DNA of 33,948 bases from Candidatus Aminicenantota bacterium (lineage in GTDB: Bacteria > Acidobacteriota > Aminicenantia > Aminicenantales > UBA4085), in contig VGJF01000006.1 in NCBI GenBank assembly GCA_016867585.1, positions 1-33,948 of the forward strand, in the 5' to 3' direction. Shown here piece after piece: positions 16,358-26,714 of this stretch; the stretch's first letter is position 1; each line of letters opens with the position of its first letter. Under the pieces are notes generated by a model. It was given only the letters and a program-made list of their open reading frames with translations, was not told where the DNA came from and made no database searches. A program made the position numbers and the translations under genes.

Positions 16358-17614
16358 TCAGGTCCCTTCCTGCCATTCGGCGAGGTATTTCTTCTGCTCG
16401 GCCGTCAAGGCGTCGATCCGGATCCCCATGGCCTCGAGCTTCCGGCGGGCGATTTCCGCGTCGATCTCCCGGGGGACCGGATAGACGGTCGGCTCGAGGG
16501 CCGAGGCGTTCCGGACGAGGTGGACGACGCTGAGGGCTTGGTTGGCGAAGCTCATGTCCATGACCATGGCCGGATGGCCTTCGGCCGCGGCCAGGTTGAT
16601 GAGCCGGCCTTCGCCCAGGAGATGGATTCTTCGGCCGTCGGCCATCGTGTACTCGTCGACGAACTCCCGGATTTTTCTTTTCCGCCTGGCCATGGCGGCC
16701 AAGGCCGGGATGTCGATTTCGACGTTGAAGTGGCCCGCGTTGGCCACGACCGCCCCGTCCTTCATGGCCGCGAAATGCCTGCGGCCGATGACGATCTTGT
16801 TGCCGGTCACGGTCACGAAGACGTCCCCAATCCGGGCGGCCTCGGCCATGGGGAGGACGTCGAAGCCGTCCATGACGGCCTCGATGGCCTTGAGGGGATC
16901 AACTTCGGTGATGATGACTCTCGCCCCGCCCCCCCGGGCCCGGGCGGCCAGGCCTCGCCCGCACCAGCCGTAGCCGGCGATGACGAATCGGAGGCCGGCC
17001 AAGAGGACGTTCGTCGCCCGAAGGATGCCGTCGATCGTGCTTTGGCCGGTTCCGTAGCGATTGTCGAAAAAGTGCTTGGTCTGGGCGTCGTTGACGGCGA
17101 TGATCGGGTAGCGGAGAACACCCTGATGGGCCATGCTCCTGAGGCGGATGACCCCCGTCGTCGTTTCCTCGGTTCCGCCGTCGACCCCCCCGACAAGGTC
17201 CCGGCGCTTTGTGTGGAGCACGGTCACGAGGTCGGCTCCGTCGTCCATCGTCAGGTGGGGCTTGTGGTCGATGGCGCTTAAGATGTGGCGGTAATAGGCC
17301 TTGTGGTCCTCCCCCTTTATGGCGAAAACGGGCAGGCCGTGATGTTTGACCAAGGCCGCGGCCAGGTCGTCCTGGGTGCTCAGGGGATTCGAGGCGCACA
17401 AGCGGACTTCGGCTCCCCCGAGCCGGAGAGCTTCCATGAGGTTCCCCGTCTCGGTCGTCACGTGGAGGCAAGCCGCGATGCGCACTCCCCGGAGAGGCTT
17501 GTCCTTGGCCAACGAGGCCTTGATCGAGTTCAGAACGGGCATGAACCGGCCGGACCACTCCATCCGGAGCTTGCCCTTGGCGGCGAGGCCGAGGTCTTTG
17601 ACATCGTAGGTCAT
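16358..17614 (-). CDS. ahcY: Adenosylhomocysteinase-family protein (short archaeal/Thermotoga-like form)
   Basis: [69 protein letters not shown]; ends EWQEGT without the KPDHYRY tail. Confidence 0.92.
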
Positions 17615-17636
17615 CGGGACATTCTCCTTTTCCGTC

Positions 17637-18803
17637 TCACAGGCCCGCGTCGCCGCGAATGGCCGCGGCCTTGTCCGTCCGTTCCCAAGTGAACTCGGGC
17701 TCGGTCCGTCCGAAATGGCCGAAGGCCGCCGTCTTCCGGTAGATCGGCCGGAGGAGGTCGAGATGCGTGATCATCGCTTTCGGCGTCAGGGGAAAATGGG
17801 CCCGGATGATCTCTTTGATCTTGTCTTCGGAGATCTTCGCCGTTCCGAAGGCGTCGACCATGAGGGAAACCGGCTCGGCGATGCCGATGGCGTAGGCGAT
17901 CTGGACCTCGACCTTGTCGACGAGACCGGCGGCGACGAGGTTCTTGGCGATGTATCGGGCCATGTACGACCCGGACCGGTCGACCTTGGAGGGGTCCTTT
18001 CCGGAGAAGCATCCGCCGCCGTGGCTGCCGACGCCGCCGTACGTGTCGACGATGATCTTCCGGCCGGTGACGCCCGTGTCGGCCAGCGGTCCGCCCTGCT
18101 CGAACCGTCCCGTTCCGTTGATGATGATCTTCGTCTTGGGGTCGATCATCCCGGCCGGAACGACCTCGTCGATGACGGCCTGCCGAATCCCTTCCCGGAG
18201 GTCGCCGATCTTGACCGCGGCGTCGTGCTGGGCGGCGATGACGATCGCTTCGACCCGCTTCGGAGCGTCCGCGGCGTATTCGATCGTGACCTGGGATTTG
18301 CCGTCGGGCCTGAGATAGGGGAGAATATGGGCCCGCCGGACGTCGGTCAGGCGGCGGACGAGCTTGTGGGCCATCATGATCGGAAGGGGCATGAGCTCTT
18401 CGGTTTCGCGGCAGGCATAGCCGAACATCAAACCCTGGTCGCCCGCCCCCTGCTCCCGGCCGGCCGTCTCGTCGACGCCCTGGGCGATGTCGGGCGACTG
18501 CTCGTGGATCGAACTCAGGACGCAGCAGGTCTCGTAATCGAAACCGTACTCGGCGTGGGTGTAGCCGATATCCCGGACCTCCTCCCGGACGACTTTTTGA
18601 AAGTCGCAATAGCCGAGAGTCGTGATTTCCCCGGCGATGAGGACGAGGCCCGTCGTGGCCAGCGTTTCGCAGGCCACCCGGCTCTTCGGGTCCTGAGCCA
18701 GGAGGTCGTCGAGGATCGCGTCGGACACCTGGTCGCAGACTTTGTCGGGGTGACCGACGGTCACCGATTCCGAGGTGAAGAAGTGTTTTCCGTCCTGACT
18801 CAT
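17637..18803 (-). CDS. metK: S-adenosylmethionine synthase
   Basis: [84 protein letters not shown]. Confidence 0.96.
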
Positions 18804-18897: not shown

Positions 18898-18926
18898 TTG
18901 ACCCTCATCCGCGAATCTGCTATTTT
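18898..18926 (+). promoter_or_regulatory. Sigma70-like promoter for the M16 pair-ftcD-GGDEF run
   Basis: TTGACC (18898-18903) - 17 nt - TATTTT (18921-18926). Confidence 0.55.
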
Positions 18927-18958: not shown

Positions 18959-20317
18959 ATGGGCGCGCCGATTTGGAAACCGGGGACCTGCGCCGCTTTG
19001 CTCTGGCTCGTCCTCGGCGGAGCGGCCGAAACCGTCCAGCTTGTCCCCGATCCCGCCCTCCCCGTCCGGTTCGCCTTGAAGAACGGGCTGGAGGTCGTCC
19101 TGTCCGAAGACCCCTCGCTTCCCGTCGTCGCCGTCGCCGTGGCTTACAGGGCCGGATCGATCCAGGAGACCGAAGGCCGGACGGGACTCGCCTATCTCAT
19201 GGAAAAGCTGATGATGGACGCGGGCGGAGAGAACGTCGCCCCCTTCCAGCACCGGAACACGATCATCCGGAGCGGCGGAACGCTCAATGCCGAGGCTTTC
19301 GAAGACCGGACGATCTTCTACCAAACCGTCCCCTCCCATCTCTTGGCCCTCGTTCTCTGGCTGGAGTCGGAGAGGATGCGATCCCTCGTCATCACCGAGG
19401 AGGTCTTCGATCGGACCCGGTTCGCCTTGCTCGAGGAACTCCGCCAGCGCCGATTCGTCGAGCCGTATCTCCCCAGCCTGTACACCCTGGATCGGCTCAC
19501 CTACGCCGATTTCCCCTACAGCCATCCTCTTCTCGGGTCTGAGAACGACGTCCGGAACTTGACCCTCGAGGACGTCCGGGCCTTCGCCGGGGAGGCTTTC
19601 TCCCCCGGCAACGCCGTCCTCGTCGTCGCCGGCCAGTTCGCCGCCGCGAGAGTCCGCGACCTCATCGGCCGCTTCTTCGAAACCATCCCTCGGGGGAAGC
19701 CTCTTCCCCCCCTTCCCTCCGGGGATTCCTCCTGGACCCGCCGGAGGATCGAACAAAGCGTCGAAGAGCCGTTTGTCCCGGCGCCCGCCCTGTATATCGC
19801 TTTTCGAATCCTGTCTCCCCGCTATCCCCTCGAGGTCAACGCCATGACGATCCTCGATTACGTCCTTCTCCGCGGCCGGACCTCCCGCCTCTCCCGCCGG
19901 CTTCTCAATCGCGATGCCAAGATCGCCTACCAGCTCAGCGGCGGCCTCGAGCGCCGTCTCGACCGGTTCGTCTACAAGATTTTCGTCACGGCCAGTCCGA
20001 CGATGATCCCGGCCTGCCAGAGCGCCGTCTTCAGCGAGCTCGAGAAGCTCCGGCGGACGTTTGTCTCCGAGGACGAGCTCTCCCGGGCCAAGGCCCGCTA
20101 TCGGGCGGACCTCGTCGGCCGGACCTCGACGGCCGCGGACAGGGCGATTTATCTGGCCGAAGAGGCCCTGGCCCTCGGCCTCGACGGCCGGACGGTCGAT
20201 GACCTGCCGGCCGAGCAAGCTAAAACTTTCGCCGTCTCGGCCAAGGACATCGTCGGGGTCATGAACCGTCATTTCACCGTCGACAACAGCATCGTCCTCA
20301 TCCTGACCCGCAAATGA
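18959..20317 (+). CDS. M16 (insulinase-like) family protein with degenerate zinc motif
   Basis: M16 fold pattern VRFALKNGLEVVLSEDPSLPVVAVAVAYRAGSIQETEGRTGLAYLMEKLMM...GGTLNAEAFEDRTIFYQTVPSHLLALVLWLESERM; HxxEH position reads YLMEK. Confidence 0.88.
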   Translation: MGAPIWKPGTCAALLWLVLGGAAETVQLVPDPALPVRFALKNGLEVVLSEDPSLPVVAVAVAYRAGSIQETEGRTGLAYLMEKLMMDAGGENVAPFQHRNTIIRSGGTLNAEAFEDRTIFYQTVPSHLLALVLWLESERMRSLVITEEVFDRTRFALLEELRQRRFVEPYLPSLYTLDRLTYADFPYSHPLLGSENDVRNLTLEDVRAFAGEAFSPGNAVLVVAGQFAAARVRDLIGRFFETIPRGKPLPPLPSGDSSWTRRRIEQSVEEPFVPAPALYIAFRILSPRYPLEVNAMTILDYVLLRGRTSRLSRRLLNRDAKIAYQLSGGLERRLDRFVYKIFVTASPTMIPACQSAVFSELEKLRRTFVSEDELSRAKARYRADLVGRTSTAADRAIYLAEEALALGLDGRTVDDLPAEQAKTFAVSAKDIVGVMNRHFTVDNSIVLILTRK

Positions 20318-21759
20318 GACGCGCCGCGATCGCTTTCGGCCTGCTCGCCCTACTGGCCGGTTGGGCGGTTCTGCCGGCCCAGGAGCGGCTCCGCCGGCCG
20401 CCGCCGATCGAGCCCCTGGCGCCCCTCCGGCTTCCCGAATTGCAATCCCGGGAGTTGGCCAACGGGCTGAAATTATGGGTCGCTTACCGGGAGGTATCCC
20501 CGATCGTCAGCCTCCATCTGATCATCGGCGGCGGCGAAAGCGCCTGGCCCGACAAGACCCCTGGCCTGGCCACCCTGGCCGCGGCCCTTCTCGGCCAGGG
20601 GACGCAATCCCGGCGCGTGTCCCAGATCGAAGAGGCCGTTGAGGCCATGGGCGGCGATCTCGTCGCCGAAGCCGGAGCGGACGCCGTCCACTTGCGTTTC
20701 CGCTTCCTGGAGAATTCTCTGGACGAGGCCCTGGCTCTCGTCGCCGAAATGATCCTTCGGCCCGATTACACGGACCGGGCCGTCCAGATCGCCAAGACGA
20801 CCGTGACCTACGACCTCGTCGACAAAGAGAGGCATCCGGCTTTCGCCGCCCGCCGTCATCTTGTCCGTCTCCTCTTCGAGGGTCATCCCTACGGTCGTTC
20901 GGCTTTCGGACGGGAGGCCATCCGAGCTTGGACCCTCAAGGATTTCCTCGAGTTTCTCGGCCGGACGTTCCATCCGAACAACACCCAGGTTCTCCTCGTC
21001 GGAAACGTGACCATCAACACGGCGACGCGCCGCGTTTCCCATTACTTGAACATGTGGCCCCGCCGCGATCTCGCCGCCCCTCCCCTGCCGCCTCCCCGAC
21101 CGCCGGCCCGGGACCGGGTTGTCCTCGTCGATCTTCCGGGAGAGGCCGACGCCCTCATTCTCGCCGGGACGACCCTGCCCTCTTTCTCCCCTTCCGAAGG
21201 AGCCGTTCTCCAGGTTCTCAACCAAATCCTCGGGGGATCCCTGTACTCCCGCCTCAATCTCAACCTCCGCGAGTCCAAGGGATATGCCCGTTTCGCGACG
21301 AGCGAGACTCTCGCCCTTCGGGCCGGGGGCGTTTTCATGATTCAAGCCTCCGTCGCCCCGGGCGTCCTCGCTCCGGCCGTGGCCGAAATCCTGGCCGAGG
21401 TCCGGAAGCTGGCCGTCTCATTCCCCCTGCCGCTCGAGGTCGAGCAGGCCAAGGGATTTCTCATGGCGAACTTCCCCGTTTCGATCGAACGTTATGACCG
21501 TTATGCCGACCGGGTCGCGGAAACGATCGTCCTCGGCGCCGGAGAGGAGCGTTGGAGCCGATACCAAGCCTCCATCGTCGGCGTCGACGGCGAAAGCGTC
21601 TCTGCTCTGGGCCGGAGGATCCTGTCGCAGCCCTTCGTCTTCGTCATTGCCGGGGCGAAAGAGGCCTGCCTGGAGCACCTGGCCGAATTCGAACCCCTCG
21701 ACGTCTTCGACGCCGGGGGCCGTTATCTTTCGACCGCGCCCAGGCGAAAGGAGCCCTGA
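20314..21759 (+). CDS. M16 family protein, non-catalytic (beta-subunit-like) with signal peptide
   Basis: Signal MRRAAIAFGLLALLAGWAVLPAQE; LANGLKLWVAYREVSPIVSLHLIIGGGESAWPDKTPGLATLAAALLGQG...; LGGSLYSRLNLNLRESKGYAR. No HxxEH. ATGA overlap with the upstream gene. Confidence 0.9.
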   Translation: MRRAAIAFGLLALLAGWAVLPAQERLRRPPPIEPLAPLRLPELQSRELANGLKLWVAYREVSPIVSLHLIIGGGESAWPDKTPGLATLAAALLGQGTQSRRVSQIEEAVEAMGGDLVAEAGADAVHLRFRFLENSLDEALALVAEMILRPDYTDRAVQIAKTTVTYDLVDKERHPAFAARRHLVRLLFEGHPYGRSAFGREAIRAWTLKDFLEFLGRTFHPNNTQVLLVGNVTINTATRRVSHYLNMWPRRDLAAPPLPPPRPPARDRVVLVDLPGEADALILAGTTLPSFSPSEGAVLQVLNQILGGSLYSRLNLNLRESKGYARFATSETLALRAGGVFMIQASVAPGVLAPAVAEILAEVRKLAVSFPLPLEVEQAKGFLMANFPVSIERYDRYADRVAETIVLGAGEERWSRYQASIVGVDGESVSALGRRILSQPFVFVIAGAKEACLEHLAEFEPLDVFDAGGRYLSTAPRRKEP

Positions 21760-23442
21760 ATGAAGCTCGTCGAGTGCGTGCCCAATTTCAGCGAGGGCCG
21801 CGATCCCGAAAAAATCCGGGCCATCGCCCGGGAAATCGAGGCGACGCCGGGAGTCAAGCTCCTCGACGTCGACCCCGGCGCGTCGACCCATCGCACGGTC
21901 GTGACGTTCGTGGGAACCCCCGAGGCCTCCGCCGAGGCGGCTTTTCGGGCGATCCGAAAGGCCGCCGAGGTCATCGACATGACGACTCACAAGGGCGCGC
22001 ACAGCCGGATCGGAGCGACCGACGTCTGCCCGTTCGTCCCTCTGGCGGGGACGACGATGGCCGATTGCGTCCGTTTGGCCAGGGAGCTCGGCCGCCGGGT
22101 GGCCGACGAACTGGGAATACCCGTTTACCTTTACGAAGAAGCGGCCGCTTCTTCCGAGAGGCGGAACCTCGCCTCGATCCGCCAGGGAGAATACGAGGGC
22201 CTGCCCGACAAGCTCAAGGATCCCGCCTGGATGCCCGATTTCGGCCGGCCCGTTTTCAACCCCCGGTCCGGAGCGACGGTCATCGGCGCCCGGGAATTTC
22301 TCATCGCCTACAACATCAACCTCGACACCCGGGACCGGAAACTCGCCAGCGAGATCGCCCTCAACATCCGGGAGAGCGGCCGCCTCCGGAGGGACAAGGA
22401 CGGGAACATCGTCCGCGACGCCTCGGGAGAGGCCGTTCGGATCCCGGGGCGGTTCTCCCACGTCAAGGCCGTCGGGTGGTACATCGAAGACTACGGCAGG
22501 GCCCAGATTTCGATCAATTTCACGAACTTCAAGGTCACCCCGGTCCACGCCGTCTTCGACGAGGTCCGGTCCCAAGCCGCCCGCCTCGGCCTCAGGGTCA
22601 CGGGGTCCGAGCTCGTCGGGCTTATTCCCCGGGAGGCTCTGCTGGCCGCCGGCCGACACTATCTGAGGAGGCAAGGCAAAAGCTCGGGAGTCCCCGAGGA
22701 AGAGCTCATCCGCCAGGCCGTCCTGTCCCTGGGCCTGAACGACGTCGCCCCCTTCGATCCCGGGAAAAAAATCATCGAGCTCCAGGTCGATGAGGCCCCG
22801 GCGAAACTCGTCGGGATGGACCTCCGGTCGTTCGCCAACGAAGTCTCGATGGATTCCCCGGCCCCGGGCGGAGGGAGCGTGGCGGCATTATGCGGGGCGC
22901 TCTCGGCCTCGCTGTCGGCCATGGTCGCCAACCTGACCGTCGGAAAGAAAGGATACGAGCGGGTCGACCGGGAGATGGACCGGACGGCCGGCCAGGCCCA
23001 GAATCTCAAGGACCGTCTTCTTCGGGCCGTCGACCTCGATACGATCGCCTTCGGAAGGGTCATGGAAGCCCTCCGCCTTCCCCAGGCGACCGCCGAGCAG
23101 CGATCCGAACGCCAAGCGGCTCTCGAGGCCGCCAACCGGGAGGCGACGGCCGTCCCCCTCGGCGTCCTCCGGGACGCCTTGGCCTTGATCGACGCGGCCG
23201 GGGCCGCGGCGGCCAAGGGGAACCGGAACTCGCTGAGCGACGCCGGAGTGGCCGCCCTGACGGCCGCCGCGGCGGCCGAGGGGGCGTTCTATAACGTTTT
23301 CATCAATCTGCCGAACCTCGGGGACGCCGAGGCCCGGGCGATGATCAAGAAAGAAGCCGCGTCCCTCCGCCGCCGGATCCTCCGCCGATCGGCCGTGGTC
23401 CGGAAGCGGGTTGAAACAAACCTGAGAAAAAAGGTAAAATAA
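21760..23442 (+). CDS. ftcD: Bifunctional glutamate formimidoyltransferase / formimidoyltetrahydrofolate cyclodeaminase
   Basis: MKLVECVPNFSEGRDPEKI, DVDPGASTHRTVVTFVG, MTTHKGAHSRIGATDVCPFVP; C-terminal cyclodeaminase SFANEVSMDSPAPGGGSVAALCGALSASLSAMVANLTVGKKGY. Confidence 0.95.
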   Translation: MKLVECVPNFSEGRDPEKIRAIAREIEATPGVKLLDVDPGASTHRTVVTFVGTPEASAEAAFRAIRKAAEVIDMTTHKGAHSRIGATDVCPFVPLAGTTMADCVRLARELGRRVADELGIPVYLYEEAAASSERRNLASIRQGEYEGLPDKLKDPAWMPDFGRPVFNPRSGATVIGAREFLIAYNINLDTRDRKLASEIALNIRESGRLRRDKDGNIVRDASGEAVRIPGRFSHVKAVGWYIEDYGRAQISINFTNFKVTPVHAVFDEVRSQAARLGLRVTGSELVGLIPREALLAAGRHYLRRQGKSSGVPEEELIRQAVLSLGLNDVAPFDPGKKIIELQVDEAPAKLVGMDLRSFANEVSMDSPAPGGGSVAALCGALSASLSAMVANLTVGKKGYERVDREMDRTAGQAQNLKDRLLRAVDLDTIAFGRVMEALRLPQATAEQRSERQAALEAANREATAVPLGVLRDALALIDAAGAAAAKGNRNSLSDAGVAALTAAAAAEGAFYNVFINLPNLGDAEARAMIKKEAASLRRRILRRSAVVRKRVETNLRKKVK

Positions 23443-23445
23443 GGG

Positions 23446-24177
23446 ATGATGCGGCTGCCGCTCATCTCGGGTGGACTCAAGAAGCGCCTTTGGGTGATCA
23501 TCATTCTCGTCATCGGGTTCCTCGTCTACACCTCCCTCGGCGATCTCCTGCCCCGCTACTGGGATTGGATCGGTTTTCGGACCTTCGAGCGGTCCGTCCT
23601 GACCATCGGCTTTCTCGTCATCCTGCTCATCGCCCTCTCCGGCCTGGCCGCGAGCGATAAGCTCTCGGACCTGGCCATCAGAGACGGGCTGACCGACCTT
23701 TACAACCAGAGTTACATCAAGGCCCGGCTCCAGGAGGAAATATACCGGTCGGACCGTTACGCCTATCCCTTGAGCATCCTCATGATCGACCTGGACGATT
23801 TCAAGAACGTCAATGATCTCCACGGCCACGTCATCGGAGATCACGTCCTCAAGGCGTTCGCCGGAGTTTTGCAGGAACTCGTCCGTCATTCGGACATCGT
23901 CGGCCGGTTCGGCGGGGAGGAGTTTCTGGCCATCCTTCCCCAGACGGGCCCTCTCGAGGCCGCCGCGGCCGCCGAGCGGATCCGCCGCGACATCGCCCAG
24001 TATCCTTTCCGGGTCGGCCGGGACCGGGACCGGCAAGTTGAGATCACGATCAGCCTGGGCGTTTTCTCGAATCCCCGACAAAACCAGAACGTCGAAGAAA
24101 TCATCACCTGCGCCGACTCGGCTCTCCGCCGGGCCAAGACCCAGGGCAAGAACAAGGTCGTCGCCGCCTCTACCTGA
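23446..24177 (+). CDS. Membrane-anchored GGDEF diguanylate cyclase
   Basis: Two N-terminal TM segments (LWVIIILVIGFLVYTSL, VLTIGFLVILLIALSGLAA); DGLTDLYNQSYIKARL, MIDLDDFKNVND, RHSDIVGRFGGEEF (I-site RxxD plus GGEEF). Confidence 0.93.
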   Translation: MMRLPLISGGLKKRLWVIIILVIGFLVYTSLGDLLPRYWDWIGFRTFERSVLTIGFLVILLIALSGLAASDKLSDLAIRDGLTDLYNQSYIKARLQEEIYRSDRYAYPLSILMIDLDDFKNVNDLHGHVIGDHVLKAFAGVLQELVRHSDIVGRFGGEEFLAILPQTGPLEAAAAAERIRRDIAQYPFRVGRDRDRQVEITISLGVFSNPRQNQNVEEIITCADSALRRAKTQGKNKVVAAST

Positions 24178-24973
24178 GACGCCTCCGGGCGGCCGCCGCC
24201 CCCCCGAAAAGAACGAGACCGACGAGGACGATCGCCCCTGAGGCCGGAAGGTCGAAAACGTAGGCCGAGAGCAGCCCCAGGACGACGGACAGCGCGCCGG
24301 CCGTCCCGGCCAGACAGAGGGCCTTCCGGAAGCTCGAGGCGACCTGGAGGGCGGCCGCGGCCGGAACGACGATCAGGGCCGAGACAAGGAGGATCCCGAC
24401 GACTCTCATCCCGAGGACGATCGTCACCGCCGCGAGGATCGTCACGGCCATGTCCAAGCGCTCGACGGGCAGCCCGGCGGCCCGGGCCGACTCCCGGTCG
24501 AACGTCAGGAAGACGAGCTTGTGGTAAAGGCCGAAGATGACGGCCGCGATCCCCGCGGCCAAGGCCGCGGCGAGGACGACCTCAAACCTGGAAATCGCCA
24601 GGATCTCGCCGAACAAGTAGCTCAGAAGTCCGGCGTTATAGGTCCGGGCGGCCGAAGCGAGGACGATCCCCAAGGCCAGCCCTCCGCTGCTCAGGACGGC
24701 GACGGCCGTGTCGCCGTGAAGTCCGGCCCGGGACTTCAACTTGACCAGGAGCCAGGCCGCGAAGACGGCGACGACGAAGGCGACGGCCAGCGGCAAACGC
24801 CGGACGAGGAGTCCGAGGGCGAGGCCGGCGAAGGTGATATGGGACAGTCCGTGTCCGATCATGGCGTCACGGCGGAGGACGAGAAAGACGCCGAGGACGG
24901 CGCAGGAGAAGGCGATGAGGATCCCGGCGACCAGGGCGCGCTGGAGAAAGGCGAATTCCAGGAAGGCTCCCAT
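24170..24973 (-). CDS. Zinc/manganese-type metal ABC transporter permease (ZnuB-like)
   Basis: AFLQRALVAGILIAFSCAVLGVFLVLRRDAMIGHGLSHITFAGLALG; multi-span ABC-3 family permease. Confidence 0.92.
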   Translation of the reverse strand: MGAFLEFAFLQRALVAGILIAFSCAVLGVFLVLRRDAMIGHGLSHITFAGLALGLLVRRLPLAVAFVVAVFAAWLLVKLKSRAGLHGDTAVAVLSSGGLALGIVLASAARTYNAGLLSYLFGEILAISRFEVVLAAALAAGIAAVIFGLYHKLVFLTFDRESARAAGLPVERLDMAVTILAAVTIVLGMRVVGILLVSALIVVPAAAALQVASSFRKALCLAGTAGALSVVLGLLSAYVFDLPASGAIVLVGLVLFGGAAAARRRLR

Positions 24974-24984
24974 GGATGCTCAGG

Positions 24985-25752
24985 TCAATGACGGTGGGAG
25001 ATCAGGTGATGGCCTCCGGCGATCATGTCGCGGAGGGCGGCCGAACGGCAGAATTCCTCGTGGGTCCCGTGGTAAACGAGCTTCCGGCCGAGGCAGGCGA
25101 CCTTGGTGATGTGGCGGTTGGCGATGCCGATGTCGTGGGTGACCAGGACGATCGTGATCCCTCGGCCGATATTCAGGGCCGAGAGAAGGTCGTAGAATTG
25201 CTCCTCCATTCCGGCGTCGACCCCCGTGGTCGGTTCGTCGAGGACGAGGAGATGCGGCGCTAGGAGGAGGGCCCGGGCGATGAATACCCGTTGCTGCTGT
25301 CCCCCCGAGAGGCGTCCGACCGGGCTTCGGGCCTCCTTGTCTAGGCCGACCAGGGCCAGGATCCTGGCGATCTCCTCGGCCTCATCCCGGGTCGTCCGAT
25401 GGAAAGGGCGGCGGGAAGCGAGAAGGCCCATGGCCACGACTTCCCTCACGGAGGCGGGGAACAAAGGGTCGAAATGCGTCGCCTTCTGGGGGACGTAGCC
25501 GATCCGCTCCCAGGCTTTGAAGGCGGAGACGGGTTGGCCCATGATTTTGACCGATCCCCGGGAGGGTTTCAAGACGCCGAGGATCGTCTTGATCAAGGTT
25601 GTCTTCCCGGACCCGTTCGGGCCGAGGACGGCCAGGAAGTCTCCCCTGAAGATGGGCAGGGTGACATCCTCGAGGACGAGGCCTCGTCCGTAGCTGAAGG
25701 AGACATTCTCGACCGAAACGAGAAGGGCTGAGTCAACGGCAGCCGAGCCCAT
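24985..25752 (-). CDS. Metal ABC transporter ATP-binding protein (ZnuC-like)
   Basis: Walker A GPNGSGKTTL, signature LSGGQQQRVFIARALL, Walker B LLVLDEPTTGVD, H-loop VTHD. Confidence 0.94.
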   Translation of the reverse strand: MGSAAVDSALLVSVENVSFSYGRGLVLEDVTLPIFRGDFLAVLGPNGSGKTTLIKTILGVLKPSRGSVKIMGQPVSAFKAWERIGYVPQKATHFDPLFPASVREVVAMGLLASRRPFHRTTRDEAEEIARILALVGLDKEARSPVGRLSGGQQQRVFIARALLLAPHLLVLDEPTTGVDAGMEEQFYDLLSALNIGRGITIVLVTHDIGIANRHITKVACLGRKLVYHGTHEEFCRSAALRDMIAGGHHLISHRH

Positions 25753-26650
25753 GGCGCAGGTTCTCCAAGTTCCGTTCCATCAGGTCAATGAAGGTCGTCC
25801 GGCCGCCCCGCGCTTCGGTCAGGTTATGGCCCGGATGGAGGAGGAGGACCTCCGCTCCGATTTCCCGGGCGATCGTCCGGGCCAGCCGGTCGCCCGAACC
25901 GGGTTCATGGAAAACGGCGGCGATGTTTTCGGACTTGGCTAAGGCGATGATCCGGACGATGTCCCTGGGAGCCGGAGAGGCCTCGGGCGTCGGCCCCATG
26001 ACCGCGGTCTGGACCAGGCCGTAGCGCCGGGCCAGATAAGCGAACGCGGCGTGGCCTCCGACGACGAGCCGCCGGCCCCGGCAGGACCGAAGGGCTTCGG
26101 CATACCGCCGGTCAAGGTCCTCAAGCCTGGCCTTGTAGGCCCGGGCGTTGGCCTCGAAAATCGGGGCTTCGGAAGGCGAAAGCTCGGCCAAAGCCGCGGC
26201 CACGCGGTCGACAATGGCCCGGTCCTGGTCGAAATCCAGCCAAACATGAGGGTCCGTCGCATGGCCTTCCCCTTCCTCATGATCCGTCTCCTGGATCAGT
26301 CGCAGTCCCCGGCTCGCTTCCAGCCTTTTCCATCCCGGTCCGGCGGCGTTCCGGAAAAGGTCTTCCGCCCAAGGATCAAGGCCGGACCCGAGATATAGGA
26401 AAAGCCCTCGCTCCCCGGCCAGCGTCTTGATGTCCCCCAGGCGGGGCTGCCAGGAGTGGATATCGGCCCCGGGAGGAACGAGGATCTCGGTTTCGGTCCG
26501 ATCTCCGCCCACCTCTCGGGCGAATTCTCCGAGAGGGAAGATCGTCGCCACGACCTTGAGTCCGGGCCGAGGATCGACGGACGCGAGGAGGGTCGCCGCG
26601 GCCGCCACGGCGGCCGCCCCCGCAGCGGAGGATACGAAACGAAGCCTCAT
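25733..26650 (-). CDS. Metal ABC transporter substrate-binding protein (ZnuA-like)
   Basis: Signal MRLRFVSSAAGAAAVAAAATLLAS; VVATIFPLGEFAREVGGDR, PPGADIHSWQP, ETDHEEGEGHATDPHVWLDFD, GGHAAFAYLARRYGL, FHEPGSGDRLARTIAREIGAEVLLLHPGH. Start moved to 26650 because the likely -10 overlaps the track start at 26686. Confidence 0.9.
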   Translation of the reverse strand: MRLRFVSSAAGAAAVAAAATLLASVDPRPGLKVVATIFPLGEFAREVGGDRTETEILVPPGADIHSWQPRLGDIKTLAGERGLFLYLGSGLDPWAEDLFRNAAGPGWKRLEASRGLRLIQETDHEEGEGHATDPHVWLDFDQDRAIVDRVAAALAELSPSEAPIFEANARAYKARLEDLDRRYAEALRSCRGRRLVVGGHAAFAYLARRYGLVQTAVMGPTPEASPAPRDIVRIIALAKSENIAAVFHEPGSGDRLARTIAREIGAEVLLLHPGHNLTEARGGRTTFIDLMERNLENLRHGLGCR

Positions 26651-26684
26651 GGGTGCGTCCAGTGAACCACTTTCATCCGGGGCC

Positions 26685-26714
26685 ATTGTAATGAACGGTC
26701 CGAAGGCCTGTCAA
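26685..26714 (-). promoter_or_regulatory. Sigma70-like promoter for the metal ABC transporter operon
   Basis: Minus strand: TTGACA (26709-26714) - 18 nt - TACAAT (26685-26690); near consensus. Confidence 0.65.

Follow-up and report, generated by a model that had tools for sequence, protein, structure and literature searches.

Bacterial M16B heterodimers, such as SPH2681/SPH2682 of Sphingomonas, TTHA1264/TTHA1265 of Thermus and PA0372/PA0371 of Pseudomonas, are encoded by two-gene operons. In each of the bacterial M16B pairs listed in a review, one subunit bears the HxxEH motif together with a distal Glu, and the R/Y pair of the partner half completes the active site (PMC12731061). The two tandem M16 genes analysed here, hereafter named P1 and P2, share with these heterodimers the two-gene organization, the two M16 domains and the size of about 50 kDa per subunit, and find their best sequence and fold matches among them. 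Unlike the pairs listed in the review, this pair has no HxxEH in either subunit in any of 73 Aminicenantia genomes. P1 and P2 are located in a 33,948-nucleotide stretch of DNA (the window), in which the following features were identified.

18898..18926, plus strand: weak sigma-70-like promoter match 5' of P1, from a consensus scan only
18959..20317, plus strand: P1, orthologous to the catalytic subunit of M16B, zinc site lost, 452 aa (Pfam PF00675/PF05193, AlphaFold, fold matches)
18959..19030, plus strand: signal-like N-terminus of P1, a hydrophobic stretch of ~24 residues with approximate end, seen by eye in most orthologues
19193..19207, plus strand: P1 residues 79-83, YLMEK, at the HxxEH position (alignment to active relatives)
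19280..19333, plus strand: P1 residues 108-125, strand pair near the active site (model strands 108-113 and 118-125)
19436..19438, plus strand: P1 E160, where active subunits have the distal Glu that binds zinc (alignment to solved M16B subunits)
20314..21759, plus strand: P2, orthologue of the naturally non-catalytic M16B partner, 481 aa (Pfam PF00675/PF05193, fold matches)
20314..20379, plus strand: putative signal peptide of P2, ~22 residues, ...VLPA|QE, end approximate (sequence, by eye)
20563..20601, plus strand: P2 residues 84-96, GLATLAAALLGQG, partner-type pseudo-motif helix (alignment)
21268..21291, plus strand: P2 residues 319-326, RESKGYAR, R/Y pair region of the partner lid (alignment)
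21760..23442, plus strand: formimidoyltransferase-cyclodeaminase (FTCD), directly 3' of P2 (Pfam)
23446..24177, plus strand: GGDEF protein, ending the gene run within the window, present only in some relatives (Pfam)

The initial annotation described an intact, ATGA-coupled pair of M16 genes with a recognisable HxxEH in neither product. Both open reading frames are complete at the positions listed and overlap at 20314-20317, and the earlier readings of GLAYLMEKLMM and ALLEELRQRR in P1 and of the pseudo-motif helix in P2 were correct. Both proteins exceed the PF00675 and PF05193 cut-offs. P1 aligned over nearly its full length with solved catalytic M16B subunits (3amj_C/3ami, E about 2e-35), and its Y79..E82-K83 fall exactly on the HxxEH of solved active subunits. 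HxxEH was also sought at other positions of P1 and P2 and was absent from both, which argues against a misplaced motif. The sequence of P2 resembles M16B partner subunits, which normally lack HxxEH; P1 is therefore the unusual half. The best NCBIfam match of P2 is the YfmF family NF047422, at 45.7 bits against a cut-off of 285 bits, and P2 is not a member of this family.

AlphaFold models of the single subunits showed a complete M16B topology in each case, with a pLDDT of 91.5 for P1 and 92.2 for P2. The best PDB fold matches of P1 were active bacterial M16B subunits (3ami, TMt 0.91; 5euf; 4nnz), and those of P2 were inactive partner subunits (3gwb, TMt 0.89; 3amj_B). The proposal that the overall fold remains is borne out by these models, which reach a pLDDT of ~92 and match the active and the partner subunits of M16B. 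By homology, given the synteny and the solved relatives, P1 and P2 would assemble into a heterodimeric clamshell. The signal-like N-termini of both proteins, recognised by eye, suggest that this clamshell is periplasmic. In P2 orthologues, a conserved QERFR segment follows the signal-like N-terminus.

Orthologues from the lineage, Candidatus Aminicenantia (Acidobacteriota), were taken from relatives, the phylum, the class and a named genome collection. Named relatives were fetched by the peptide patterns LWLESDRM and NGLxV..., which do not include the motif, so that they were not chosen for it. A first set of 59 loci and 15 further loci found later, minus one duplicate contig, gave 73 distinct Aminicenantia genomes. 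Alignment detected HxxEH in 0/73 Aminicenantia P1 orthologues versus 84/84 comparison relatives, all of which combine it with the distal Glu. The full set of three zinc ligands is absent from all 73 proteins: one ligand is left in 50, none in 22 and two in a single protein. The motif loss could have been an isolated mutation or an assembly error, as the initial annotation had cautioned. No Aminicenantia orthologue carries HxxEH, hence the mutation is not isolated, and the congeners G003 and G002 share with the window P1 both YxxEK and an extra residue after it, which excludes an assembly error. For annotation, this means that these orthologues, present in about 70 genomes, should not carry an active zinc protease label.

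We then compared conservation along the two proteins with that of active relatives, in which 42 P1 positions are near-invariant. The largest changes in the clade were found at positions 79, 81, 83, 157, 160 and 167, that is, in the zinc helix and the distal-Glu helix, and E82 was partly lost. Most of the remaining near-invariant positions are still conserved at 90% or more in the clade. Residues 108-125 of P1, which we take to be the equivalent of the M16 substrate-binding edge strand, are largely kept (N110 in 49/59, A111 in 54/59 and T113 in 48/59 orthologues), with a slight erosion of the substrate-strand residues N110 (83%), T113 (81%) and T118 (78%). Clade-specific, newly conserved positions were also detected: K340, Y301 and Q97 in P1, and E75, S78 and P349 in P2. 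On the partner side, the P2 positions lost in the clade are 279, 325 and 326, the last of which corresponds in the alignment to the Tyr of the R/Y pair. The Arg of this pair, R319, is present in 57/57 P2 proteins of the clade and in 71/71 active relatives. The Tyr is found in 69/71 active relatives and as Y326 in 34 of the 57; in the window P2, R319 is accompanied by R326, so that the R/Y pair of an active M16B enzyme is incomplete. These alignments thus show decay on both sides of one composite active site, the rest of the molecule being held. The zinc side in P1 and the Tyr lid in P2 were given up, fully or in part, within a pair that is itself conserved and retained.

In quick tree searches without bootstrap, the 59 inactive P1s among 111 M16 proteins grouped into a single clade (SH-aLRT 99) next to Acidobacteriota enzymes that carry HxxEH, and this clade persisted when the motif columns were removed (SH-aLRT 99). 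The 57 P2s formed a matching clade (SH-aLRT 97). The pair was detected in 67/71 genomes of the window's order, complete in 66 and split in one, the four genomes without it being draft assemblies. It is also present in families f10 and f12, the two deepest; when looked for across the class, it was not found in families f8, f9 and f11. The best reading of these trees is a single ancient loss of catalysis, which would have occurred in an ancestor shared by much of Candidatus Aminicenantia. Sequence identity is about 43% for P1 and about 37% for P2, versus about 70% for FTCD and AHCY, and the pair thus evolves faster than its neighbours. The dN/dS ratio between close pairs was about 0.03-0.33 for both genes, indicating that P1 and P2 are selected proteins and not relics.

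Analysis of the gene environment showed that the catalytic-type and partner-type genes are adjacent, in constant order, in every locus where both are readable. The order P1-P2-FTCD within about 50 nt was found in 42/46 longer orthologous loci, f10 and f12 included, and FTCD was found near the M16 pair in 0/83 outgroup loci. Almost every genome of the class has FTCD, also in the pair-less families f8, f9 and f11, and in four genomes (G049, G031, G037 and G055) the gene sits on another contig. A function shared with FTCD was considered and rejected, since FTCD occurs without the pair in these families and elsewhere in these four genomes; the link is positional. Its stable place beside the pair does not clearly make FTCD a functional partner. 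Among the orthologous loci, a search for a third gene constantly present in the operon found none, and no bc1 genes were recognised among the annotated neighbours in the window.

Several other observations concern the neighbourhood. The gene following the pair mostly encodes a bifunctional FTCD of ~558 aa; in G118 (f10) its product has 348 aa, and in G175 (f12; L166:10719-11633) it has ~305 aa and matches the formiminotransferase part. In three f5 genomes (L143:3060-7640; L144:9490-12309; L145:6465-9239), the pair lies in a different neighbourhood, downstream from a large protein of 801-827 aa and one of 115-125 aa that resembles an anti-sigma-factor antagonist. A small macro-domain-like protein (...EGNIALVDAEAIVNA..., named by eye) was seen downstream from the pair in several genomes (L161:13136-13690; L144:5909-6451; L145:2981-3532; L153:10783-11304). 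In the window, a ZnuABC-type metal ABC transporter (ABC-3 permease, ATPase and ZnuA-like binding protein; 24173-26686, minus strand) is convergent with the M16/FTCD run. Its place is conserved in many relatives, and this is probably only synteny. Adjacent genes for S-adenosylmethionine synthetase and S-adenosylhomocysteine hydrolase (16358-18803, minus strand) are divergent from P1 and conserved in most of the order. No RNA element or riboswitch was detected by Rfam between metK and P1.

The initial annotation had offered two explanations for such a pair, a non-proteolytic role or an alternative active site. The former is well supported: the ligands are lost throughout the clade, with a matching loss in the partner half of the active site, selection is purifying, the fold is intact and the operon is conserved. 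Judging from the sequences, P1-P2 is very probably a non-proteolytic M16B pair. It is likely, with somewhat less assurance, that one ancient loss of catalysis converted an exported M16B clamshell into a pseudopeptidase pair that is conserved and serves to bind or scaffold. The ancestor of P1 and P2 would have been an ordinary exported bacterial M16B heterodimeric peptidase, in which P1 lost the catalytic centre once and the matching lid residue of P2 largely disappeared. The clamshell itself would have been kept, with its two M16 subunits, one operon, signal-like N-termini and most of the residues lining the substrate strand. The two halves could then form a chamber or docking surface for a peptide, an unfolded segment or a partner in a membrane complex, and the bound molecule would be held or scaffolded and not cut.

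We put at about even the chance that the pair binds clients inside this chamber and is not a structural subunit. R319 and the kept strand residues favour peptide binding in the chamber. The eroded strand residues N110, T113 and T118 mean that client binding there is not demanded, and the faster evolution of the pair than of its neighbours fits a loose scaffold as well. Yeast core I, which is structural, has likewise lost the motif, so that binding need not have outlasted the loss. As a more tentative proposal, P1-P2 may act as a periplasmic M16 holdase or peptide receptor, in which the old substrate strand and the Arg lid would capture extended peptides or unfolded segments and release them uncut. 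A strictly structural role, in which the two proteins would act, in the manner of core I/II of yeast bc1, as a scaffold in a larger envelope complex and bind no peptide in the chamber, seems rather unlikely, though it is the strongest competitor. The erosion of the lid Tyr and the substrate-strand residues along with the zinc site is consistent with it, and so are the new clade-specific conserved positions, as expected if an interface had been gained. In yeast, the motif was detected in neither core I nor core II, and core I shows no activity (PMC12731061). However, the invariant R319 and the largely kept N110, A111 and T113 speak for continued constraint on the chamber face, and the only constant additional operon gene is FTCD, a cytosolic-type enzyme.

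The genome was also searched for a separate HxxEH partner, as had been suggested earlier, and other M16 proteins with HxxEH were found on contigs C121, C123 and C247. M16-type proteolysis is therefore covered elsewhere in the genome. Several HxxEH-bearing proteins in the same genome, and the need of M16B enzymes for an inactive half, could make P1 and P2 regulatory or alternative partners of these catalytic subunits instead of each other's pair. We consider this improbable, since P1 and P2 are neighbours in every readable locus, are translationally coupled in the window and form matching clades, and since a partner-type gene next door or a fused half accompanies most of the catalytic M16 proteins examined.

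Even less probable is that P1-P2 is still an enzyme, with residual or new hydrolysis at an unusual metal or non-metal site made of Y79, E82, N83 and E160. Across the 73 Aminicenantia proteins, position 79 is Y in 52, F in 10, H in 5 and another residue in 6, so that 62 have Y or F; position 82 is E in 52, Q in 19 and another residue in 2; position 83 is N in 59, K in 5, H in 5 and another residue in 4; and the distal position 160 is E in 42, N in 14, D in 9 and another residue in 8. The predominance of these residues would be compatible with such a site, and bovine core I, which reads YFVEH with Tyr first, has weak activity after detergent treatment (PMC12731061). Bovine core I nevertheless retains the second His, where the Aminicenantia P1 mostly has N or K. 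In addition, Q replaces E82 in 19/73 proteins and the distal ligand is gone in 31/73. The proposed alternative active site thus found no support, with Y/F/H/S/A at position 79, N/K/H/T/R/G at position 83 and E82 often replaced by Q; since no set of pocket residues is constant, the active site is unlikely to have been rebuilt. A metal site rebuilt around the clade-invariant H98 was also considered and rejected, as the same position is His in 55/84 active relatives and H98 is thus not a new ligand. Finally, decay into inactive relics without current function, which the lost catalytic residues and the faster evolution than that of neighbouring genes might suggest, is refuted by the open frames in 73 genomes, the low dN/dS given above, the high-confidence fold and the near-universal presence in the order.

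The conserved pseudopeptidase pair that we favour can be set against two groups of known M16 proteins. In alpha-MPP and other single M16 pseudopeptidases, an inactive half completes the chamber, as may be the case here. The difference is that alpha-MPP serves an active beta subunit, whereas in the Aminicenantia pair the supposed active subunit itself is dead. Among the open-access papers searched, we found no description of M16 pseudopeptidases of Aminicenantes. The nearest parallel to a pair without a working site is mitochondrial bc1 Core I/Core II, a pair of M16B homologues in which the site is lost or altered in both. The bc1 core proteins match the P1 fold at a TM of about 0.8, and the Tyr at the first-His position of bovine core I corresponds to Y79 of P1. 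Core I and Core II are, however, mitochondrial, located on the matrix side as part of complex III, and no bc1 link was seen for the Aminicenantia pair. Because the inactive P1 clade lies beside active Acidobacteriota enzymes in the tree, its loss is best read as convergent with that of bc1. If P1-P2 is indeed a holdase or receptor, it would be an obligate non-enzymatic clamshell and a bacterial counterpart of the bc1 core proteins. The purpose of an M16 chamber unable to cut becomes a testable question in this simple two-gene system, and the clade provides, in bacteria, an independent parallel to the unexplained catalytic loss of the bc1 core proteins.
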